Shown one piece after another: positions 10,559-29,088 of a stretch of DNA of 32,129 bases; within the stretch, counting starts at the first letter, position 1, and the number at the start of each line of letters is the position of its first letter. The DNA is taken from positions 7,107 to 39,235 of the forward strand of contig PLTX01000110.1 of NCBI GenBank assembly GCA_003164675.1, written 5' to 3'. The notes beneath the pieces are model-generated. The model searched no databases. It worked only from the letters and a program-made list of their open reading frames with translations, and was not told the DNA's origin. The position numbers and the translations under genes were made by a program. The DNA comes from Verrucomicrobiota bacterium (GTDB taxonomy: Bacteria; Verrucomicrobiota; Verrucomicrobiia; Palsa-1439).

Positions 10559-10599
10559 GACATTGATGGTTCCTTCCAGCCAGAATGACAAACTTCGTG

Positions 10600-10605
10600 T
10601 ATGAT
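10600..10605 (+). promoter_or_regulatory. Candidate -10 box of miaA
   Basis: TATGAT lies 9 nt before the miaA ATG. There is no good -35 box at standard spacing. If used, it would give a leaderless miaA transcript. Confidence 0.25.
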
Positions 10606-10614
10606 GTCCAACGA

Positions 10615-11592
10615 ATGCAAACCCTGTTCCTCGTCGGCCCAACCGCGGTTGGCAAGAGCGCCATCGCCCTGGAACTGGCCGGGCGATTAGGTGCGGAAAT
10701 TGTGTCGGCTGACTCGATGCAGGTCTATCGCGGGATGGACGTCGGCACGGCCAAGCCAACCGCTGCGGAACGCGCATTCGTGCCGCATCATCTTATCGAT
10801 GTATGCGAGGTCAACGACGTGTTCGACGCCAAACGGTTTGTTGAGCTGGCTTCCCAGGCAATTGCGGACATTCACTCACGAGGGAAGTTGGCGCTCGTCG
10901 TCGGCGGAACGGGGATGTATGTGCGCGCGTTACGACACGGATTGTTCGACGGGCCACCGCGAAATGATGAACTGCGGGCCCGCCTGGAAAGCCTGAGCGC
11001 CCCGGAATTGTTTGCAGAACTGCAGCGCGTGGACCCGCAGACGGCCAGCCGCATCGATCGGCACAATCCGCGCCGGCTCGTGCGCGCGCTGGAAGTGTTT
11101 TACGAGACGGGCAAGCCGATCAGCGAGTTGCAGAAGGAATGGAAAACCCCTCACCTTAATCCTCTCCCCACAAGTGGGGAGAGGAAACGAAACGCGGGAG
11201 GGGGTCAGGGTGAGGAGGTAGCAGTTTGTCTGTCACGAGCGCGGAATGATTTGCACGCTCGTATTGAACGGCGGATCGACGAACAGATACAGGCTGGATG
11301 GGTTGCGGAGGTTCAACGCCTGATGGGACTGGGCCTGGAGAAGAACCCGTCGGCGATGCAGGCGGCGGGTTATCGCGAATTGGTGGCGCACGCCCACGGC
11401 GAAATTTCCCTCGACAACGCGGTGGCGCTGATCAAGACCCGCACCCGCCAACTGGCCAAACGACAATTGACTTGGTTTCGTCGCGAGCCTCAATTACAGT
11501 GGATTCAGATCGGGTGCGAGGAACAGCCTTCAGAAACGGCGACACGCGTCCGTGATATTTTTCATCAACAGGAGAAAAGTTTGGCACGTTGA
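10615..11592 (+). CDS. miaA: tRNA dimethylallyltransferase MiaA with an in-frame repeat insertion
   Basis: 325 residues from the ATG at 10615; an in-frame ATG at 10585 is possible, but homology starts at MQTLFLVGPT. It adds an isopentenyl group from dimethylallyl diphosphate to A37 of tRNAs that read codons starting with U. Motifs are the P-loop GPTAVGKS (8-15), DSMQVYRGMDVGTAKP (33-48) and GGTGMYVRAL (97-106), then LEVFYETGKPISELQ and RQLAKRQLTWFR near the end. Residues about 177-201 (TPHLNPLPTSGER and following) are translated from a palindromic repeat and do not belong to the family core. They fall between the helix ending SELQKEW and the strand VAVCLSR, in a surface region that varies in length, so the enzyme probably still works. 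It is the first gene of miaA-hflX-amidase-radC. No ribosome binding site is seen. Confidence 0.95.
   Translation: MQTLFLVGPTAVGKSAIALELAGRLGAEIVSADSMQVYRGMDVGTAKPTAAERAFVPHHLIDVCEVNDVFDAKRFVELASQAIADIHSRGKLALVVGGTGMYVRALRHGLFDGPPRNDELRARLESLSAPELFAELQRVDPQTASRIDRHNPRRLVRALEVFYETGKPISELQKEWKTPHLNPLPTSGERKRNAGGGQGEEVAVCLSRARNDLHARIERRIDEQIQAGWVAEVQRLMGLGLEKNPSAMQAAGYRELVAHAHGEISLDNAVALIKTRTRQLAKRQLTWFRREPQLQWIQIGCEEQPSETATRVRDIFHQQEKSLAR
11147..11216. repeat. Palindromic repeat element inserted in miaA
   Basis: Outer arms CCTCACC (11149-11155) and GGTGAGG (11209-11215) enclose a perfect inner hairpin, CCTCTCCCC (11161-11169) and GGGGAGAGG (11176-11184), with loop ACAAGT. The architecture matches the widespread intergenic palindrome that translates as HLNPLPxxGER in one frame. 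Here it lies within a coding region without breaking the frame. Confidence 0.8.
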
Positions 11593-28593: not shown

Positions 28594-29088
28594 CTAATTC
28601 GCGCCGCCGCTCAATTTCCGTGTGTTGGGGGAGCGGGTTGGGACGGAGTGATAGCGGTTCGTCCCGGCGGCATCGCCCTTGGCCGGGCGGCGGCTGCGAG
28701 TACCGGGCGCGGGCTGGTAGGGCTTGACGAAGGCCTCGTCGAAATCGTAACCGCCTTTGAAGTCCTCGCGCGTGTCCTGTTCCGTCTTGCCGAGTACGCC
28801 TTTATCCACCATCTGGAAGACAATCTCGCCGAAATCCTCACACCGTTTGATCCCCCAGTAACCGAACACGGTCTTGGACATCGGGCCGAACTGATCGAGG
28901 GCGTAGCGCCGCAGGCCGTCCAGCAGTTCCTGGCCGCTGACGTGCCGCCCCGCACCCCGCAAATCCTTCTTGAGCATCTTGATGGTGAAATCCAGTCCCT
29001 CGCGCACGAAGTAGTAGGCGTCGCGGTCGTACCGTCCATCCGCACGGATGATTTCGTCGACGGTCTCAGCGAAATTCAACTTTTGCAT
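28594..29088 (-). CDS. Minf_1886 family protein
   Basis: 164 residues. The conserved 125-residue core reads QKLNFAETVDEIIRADGRYD, AYYFVREGLDFTIKMLKKDL, RHVSGQELLDGLRRYALDQF, GPMSKTVFGYWGIKRCEDFG, EIVFQMVDKGVLGKTEQDT and GYDFDEAFVKPY. I recognise this as the family named after a Methylacidiphilum gene, found mainly in Verrucomicrobia and Planctomycetes, without known function. The tail (from about 135) is basic and disordered. The start codon overlaps the stop of the upstream small membrane protein (TAATG), so the two are translationally coupled. Confidence 0.85.
   Translation of the reverse strand: MQKLNFAETVDEIIRADGRYDRDAYYFVREGLDFTIKMLKKDLRGAGRHVSGQELLDGLRRYALDQFGPMSKTVFGYWGIKRCEDFGEIVFQMVDKGVLGKTEQDTREDFKGGYDFDEAFVKPYQPAPGTRSRRPAKGDAAGTNRYHSVPTRSPNTRKLSGGAN

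Follow-up and report, generated by a model that had tools for sequence, protein, structure and literature searches.

A dispersed, REP-like palindromic element read in frame within miaA of a Verrucomicrobiota bacterium

A 32,129-nt stretch of DNA from a Verrucomicrobiota bacterium (the window, numbered here from its first nucleotide) contains a tRNA dimethylallyltransferase gene, miaA, in which a palindromic segment is predicted to be read through as protein. Is this segment a copy of a dispersed repeat, and, if so, what has its insertion meant for the gene and its product? Rickettsia palindromic elements (RPEs) are dispersed palindromes that lie in frame in unrelated genes and are read as extra protein segments. 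We compared the miaA segment with the rest of its genome, a draft assembly of one strain (125 contigs, 90% completeness), with orthologues in relatives, and with matches in other phyla.

RESULTS

An open miaA with an in-frame palindromic element

The features of the locus are as follows.

10618..11592, + strand: miaA (tRNA dimethylallyltransferase), 324 aa from ATG 10618; Pfam IPPT, PDB 2qgn
11147..11218, + strand: in-frame palindromic element derived from a REP doublet, 72 nt; identified from genome copies, palindrome, fold, absence in relatives, and family alignment
11149..11155, no strand: left foot CCTCACC, pairing with GGTGAGG at 11209-11215 (doublet outer arms)
11160..11185, no strand: intact first hairpin, TCCTCTCCCCAC-AA-GTGGGGAGAGGA, 12-bp arms, 100% complementary
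11196..11215, no strand: remnant of the second, inverted hairpin, consisting of its 3' arm and foot (GGGAGGGGGTCAGGGTGAGG), recognized by comparison with full-length doublets

The open reading frame (ORF) at 10585-11592 (+ strand) encodes MiaA (Pfam IPPT, E 6.5e-82) and has PDB 2qgn as a structural homologue (E 1.1e-60). The mechanical ORF begins at 10585; the ATG at 10618 agrees with the start in relatives and gives the 324-aa form. A genome search found a single copy of miaA in the 3.6-Mb draft. Its frame has no stop or frameshift, codon-usage scores give coding signal on both sides of the insert, and of 64 positions with at least 90% conservation among relatives, 63 are intact, about as good a record as that of uninterrupted relatives. 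The single-sequence AlphaFold model of MiaA has a mean pLDDT of 51, which is too poor to judge the structure of the insert loop.

The first-pass annotation of this DNA had placed the element in frame within miaA, and this is confirmed; the ORF is open across 11147-11218, and Pfam assigns the product to MiaA. It had also described nested inverted repeats with outer arms of 7 bp and inner arms of 9 bp. The 7-bp foot (CCTCACC/GGTGAGG) is perfect and ends outer arms of 20 nt (11149-11168 and 11196-11215) that are 80% complementary overall, but the inner arms (11160-11171 and 11174-11185) are 12 bp long rather than 9. Folded as single-stranded DNA, the element reaches -19.6 kcal/mol, compared to -10.8 +/- 2.08 for shuffled sequences (z -4.23), and none of the 200 shuffles folds as well. 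Compared with full-length doublets, the miaA copy has every part except the second hairpin's 5' arm. Stops are absent from three of six reading frames in the miaA copy and likewise from three of six in the full doublet.

In MiaA, the element reads TPHLNPLPTSGERKRNAGGGQGEE and is flanked by the conserved stretches KPISELQKEW and VAVCLSRARNDL. It occupies residues 177-200/201 of the 324-aa form, matching the residues (177-201) originally assigned to it. The loop between the flanking conserved motifs has 32 residues here versus 12 to 26 in 29 relatives, a net gain that ranges from about 14 residues, against the same genus, up to 20. An initial estimate of 20 to 25 added residues therefore describes the encoded segment (about 24 residues); compared with its nearest relatives, the loop is longer by about 14. 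The aligned region is likewise short and gapped in the PDB homologues of MiaA. As had been claimed, the segment is absent from MiaA homologues, at least in the alignment of these 29 relatives, and a relative with the segment but no palindrome, the case named beforehand as telling against an insertion, does not occur among them. The MAFFT DNA alignment of miaA does not resolve the exact insertion boundary.

A family of about 62 sites, mostly between genes

A BLAST search of the genome with the miaA segment returned 56 matching pieces, many with E below 1e-6; other copies in the genome match it at 93% identity over 42 nt (E 2.8e-11). A degenerate pattern allowing up to two mismatches gave 72 hits in the same genome, compared to 0 for the reversed-pattern control. 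From aligned copies, the full form of the family consists of two hairpins in inverted orientation, CCCCTCACCTTAATCCTCTCCCC-loop-GGGGAGAGGA and, after a spacer, TCCCCTCTCCCTT-loop-AAGGGAGAGGGTCAGGGTGAGGG, with the foot CTCACC(T/C)T(A/G)A(T/C). Among the 24 doublet matches listed, the length from CTC to GAG is most often 83 nt. Single hairpins of the family are also common.

We also observed a variant of about 125 nt in which one half has a different, GC-rich inner hairpin (CCTTTGCCGCC...GGCTCCCCCC). It occurs at L066:2006-2130, L067:2057, L068:1786, L039:1642, L065, and L048:6285.

To place the sites relative to genes, we used a gene finder based on codon usage, with scores trained on 115 long ORFs from the same loci. 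It assigned 55 of 63 sites to intergenic DNA and 7 to gene interiors, with 1 overlapping a gene end; by its calls, the flanks of intergenic sites were codirectional in 22 cases, convergent in 14, and divergent in 13. We then corrected this tally by dropping the site at L049, a chance match, and by reassigning two "intergenic" sites to vsr, a gene that the finder had missed. The corrected tally is about 62 sites, of which approximately 54 are extragenic and 8 lie within a total of seven genes. These data bear out two early expectations, namely that the genome would hold further copies of the element, which BLAST and the pattern search both recover, and that the element is of a type normally found between genes. 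The match at L049 and those at position 452 of L054 and position 28824 of the window form no hairpin and depart from the pattern at two or three positions; they were rejected as chance pattern matches.

REPIN-type inverted doublets are thought to be moved by RAYT-type Y1 transposases. The genome has three genes with the corresponding domain, PF01797 (Y1_Tnp). None of them adjoins an element copy; the nearest is about 1.4 kb away, on C5, with other genes between. Across 15 genomes, counts of PF01797 genes do not track counts of the element.

In-frame copies in seven genes

A count of copies in coding regions, which had been suggested as a check, gives 8 of the approximately 62 sites, in seven genes that include miaA:

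miaA, 11147-11218, + strand: one in-frame copy
glnS, L070: 29 encoded residues, open and in frame
MsbA-like ABC exporter gene, L041: 29 encoded residues, between the transmembrane and ATPase domains
OGG gene, L045, + strand: 14 encoded residues, open and in frame
midA, L062:2036-2080: 16 encoded residues, open and in frame
TPR-rhomboid protein gene, L057: about 15 encoded residues, in a linker
vsr, L047:1658-3184, - strand: two in-frame copies

All eight copies are open and in frame, and in most of the seven genes Pfam domains flank or span the insert. The proteins are unrelated, as are the positions of the inserts within them, and different frames and strands of the element are used. Orthologues without the insert were found for GlnRS (in 9 relatives), OGG (9), the ABC exporter (3), the rhomboid protein (3), and Vsr (G003), in addition to the 29 for MiaA. 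Searching ten codirectional gene pairs close to elements for split halves, we found no gene broken by the element: each pair consists of two different genes.

For midA, the insert is missing from one same-genus genome (G001); in another (G002), the site is occupied by a longer composite of two hairpins (L234:891-1061). The midA unit of the present genome (G000) corresponds to the first unit of G002 in reverse complement. Such differences in orientation and length at one site indicate either that an ancestral insert was rearranged or that the site was hit twice, as a hotspot would be.

A long opposite-strand ORF at L045 was considered as the host of that copy and rejected, since Pfam places the element in OGG on the + strand. 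The vsr ORF also has the peptide HPSTSLRAGEG, which looks like the translated copy of a different common repeat.

DISCUSSION

Origin of the miaA segment and state of the enzyme

We consider it highly probable, judging from sequence, that the segment arose by insertion of a dispersed, selfish, REP-like element in a loop of MiaA between KPISELQ and LSRARNDL, and that the enzyme still works with an insert that serves no dedicated function. This loop is naturally variable in length. The element would spread as nonautonomous selfish DNA, perhaps mobilized by a Y1 (RAYT-type) transposase, and its insertions in genes would survive only under three conditions: a net length that does not shift the frame, use of a stop-free frame, and a position in a surface loop or an interdomain linker. 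With three of six frames stop-free, about one random insertion in six would preserve an open frame. After losing one hairpin arm, the miaA copy would have been left open from end to end, yielding a Pro/Gly/Glu-rich and probably unstructured insert, and MiaA is predicted most likely to work with it. Tolerated selfish insertion in loops and linkers, with out-of-frame events purged, is the most likely explanation for the set of genic copies as well. That these copies are few and only in frame fits the removal of harmful insertions, with the caveat that detection favors open frames and biases the in-frame fraction upward.

Insertion in any catalytic protein can impair its function, and the miaA frame might be open only by luck in an ageing pseudogene or in a gene for an impaired enzyme. 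We regard such damage as improbable: 63 of the 64 conserved positions are kept, the only miaA in the genome has neither stop nor frameshift and has coding signal on either side of the insert, and six other genes, glnS among them, have similar open, in-frame inserts. The opposite outcome, in which the element has been recruited so that the inserted peptide or an mRNA hairpin is functional (for example, as a partner-binding loop or in translational pausing), is in our estimate very improbable. The insert is retained in frame and midA of a second same-genus species (G002) carries the element at the same site, which speaks for recruitment, but neither the host proteins nor the positions of the inserts are related, different frames and strands of the element are used, and close relatives lack the inserts. 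Finally, loop length does vary among MiaA proteins, and the segment might be ordinary variation of this kind with a palindrome arising by chance. This reading is almost certainly wrong; it is refuted by the match of the segment to other copies in the genome (93% identity over 42 nt) and by the absence of hits to the reversed pattern, and the fold (z -4.2) also argues against it.

Relation to known repeats

Bertels and Rainey reportedly described REPINs, in 2011, as REP doublets with a RAYT transposase. The element family resembles REPINs in that it consists of two inverted REPs with a short spacer (in the 24 doublet matches listed), is dispersed, and is mostly extragenic (about 54 of 62 sites), but no copy was found beside a RAYT-type gene. 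It resembles RPEs in being palindromic, dispersed, and located in frame in unrelated genes, where it would add protein segments. It differs from RPEs in that most of its copies are intergenic and, compared by description, it is probably a different element. The proposed likeness to RPEs holds in principle, with intragenic REP dimers as the closer precedent (PMC3733652).

REPs tagged with GTAG or CGTC, and dimers of them, have in-frame intragenic copies in Opitutus terrae, which belongs to the Verrucomicrobia, and in Rickettsia conorii, Xanthomonas, and other bacteria (PMC3733652). Such intragenic REPs encode 20 to 30 residues, and their hosts include tRNA synthetases and tRNA pseudouridine synthases (Di Nocera et al. 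2013, PMC3733652). The present family is likewise made of short hairpin repeats, often inverted dimers, that are mostly intergenic and in some cases in frame in conserved proteins. Unlike the tagged REPs, it has its own foot, with GTAG or CTAC in or near only 1 of 24 doublets; CGTC is absent from the repeated foot in the copy alignment. Literature searches found no published description of this motif. In-frame insertion of REPs is already documented, and the element is a further, non-GTAG-tagged family of that kind. What is unusual is how widely it occurs among phyla and that it lies in essential proteins.

Reach over phyla and significance

At least 112 stretches contain the exact 20-mer CTCACCTTAATCCTCTCCCC; they represent many phyla and come mostly from metagenome-derived genomes. 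The matches listed include Omnitrophota, Elusimicrobia, Armatimonadetes, Nitrospinota, Deltaproteobacteria, Chloroflexi, and Verrucomicrobia, and among them are four further in-frame copies:

L122:5808-5861: Era, KH domain (Omnitrophota)
L124:4443-4496: Mur ligase (Clostridia)
L129:1325-1378: PmbA/TldD (Deltaproteobacteria)
L155:1945-1998: MnmA, C-terminal domain (Nitrospinota)

One could go further and suppose that a single untagged family, with an exact 20-bp core over many phyla, enters housekeeping proteins in frame repeatedly (MiaA, GlnRS, Era, MnmA, Mur ligase, PmbA/TldD), and that its sequence has been molded to leave several frames free of stops, with a harmless Pro/Gly/Glu-rich linker as their product, translatability being part of its persistence. 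We consider this extended proposal unlikely.

New protein segments made from palindromic DNA in the manner of Rickettsia probably also occur, then, in another bacterial lineage and from a different element family, and the frequency of in-frame copies (8 of about 62 sites) is notable. Because such copies lie in essential proteins of several phyla, they amount to natural replicate experiments on the question of which loops tolerate 15 to 30 foreign residues. Protein motifs in databases such as PHLNPLPxGER and LTLILSP are translated repeat DNA, not domains.

The exact degenerate pattern, which has 61 hits in the genome of the miaA element, has 13 and 20 in two same-genus genomes, 14 in G006, 20 in G013 (another family), and 0 to 3 in other genomes. 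Two ORFs of G006 contain the doublet in frame: one for a UvrD/AddA-like helicase, close to its start (L233:1920-4445, + strand), and one of 423 aa, where the doublet follows the first transmembrane segment (L232:1411-2679, + strand).
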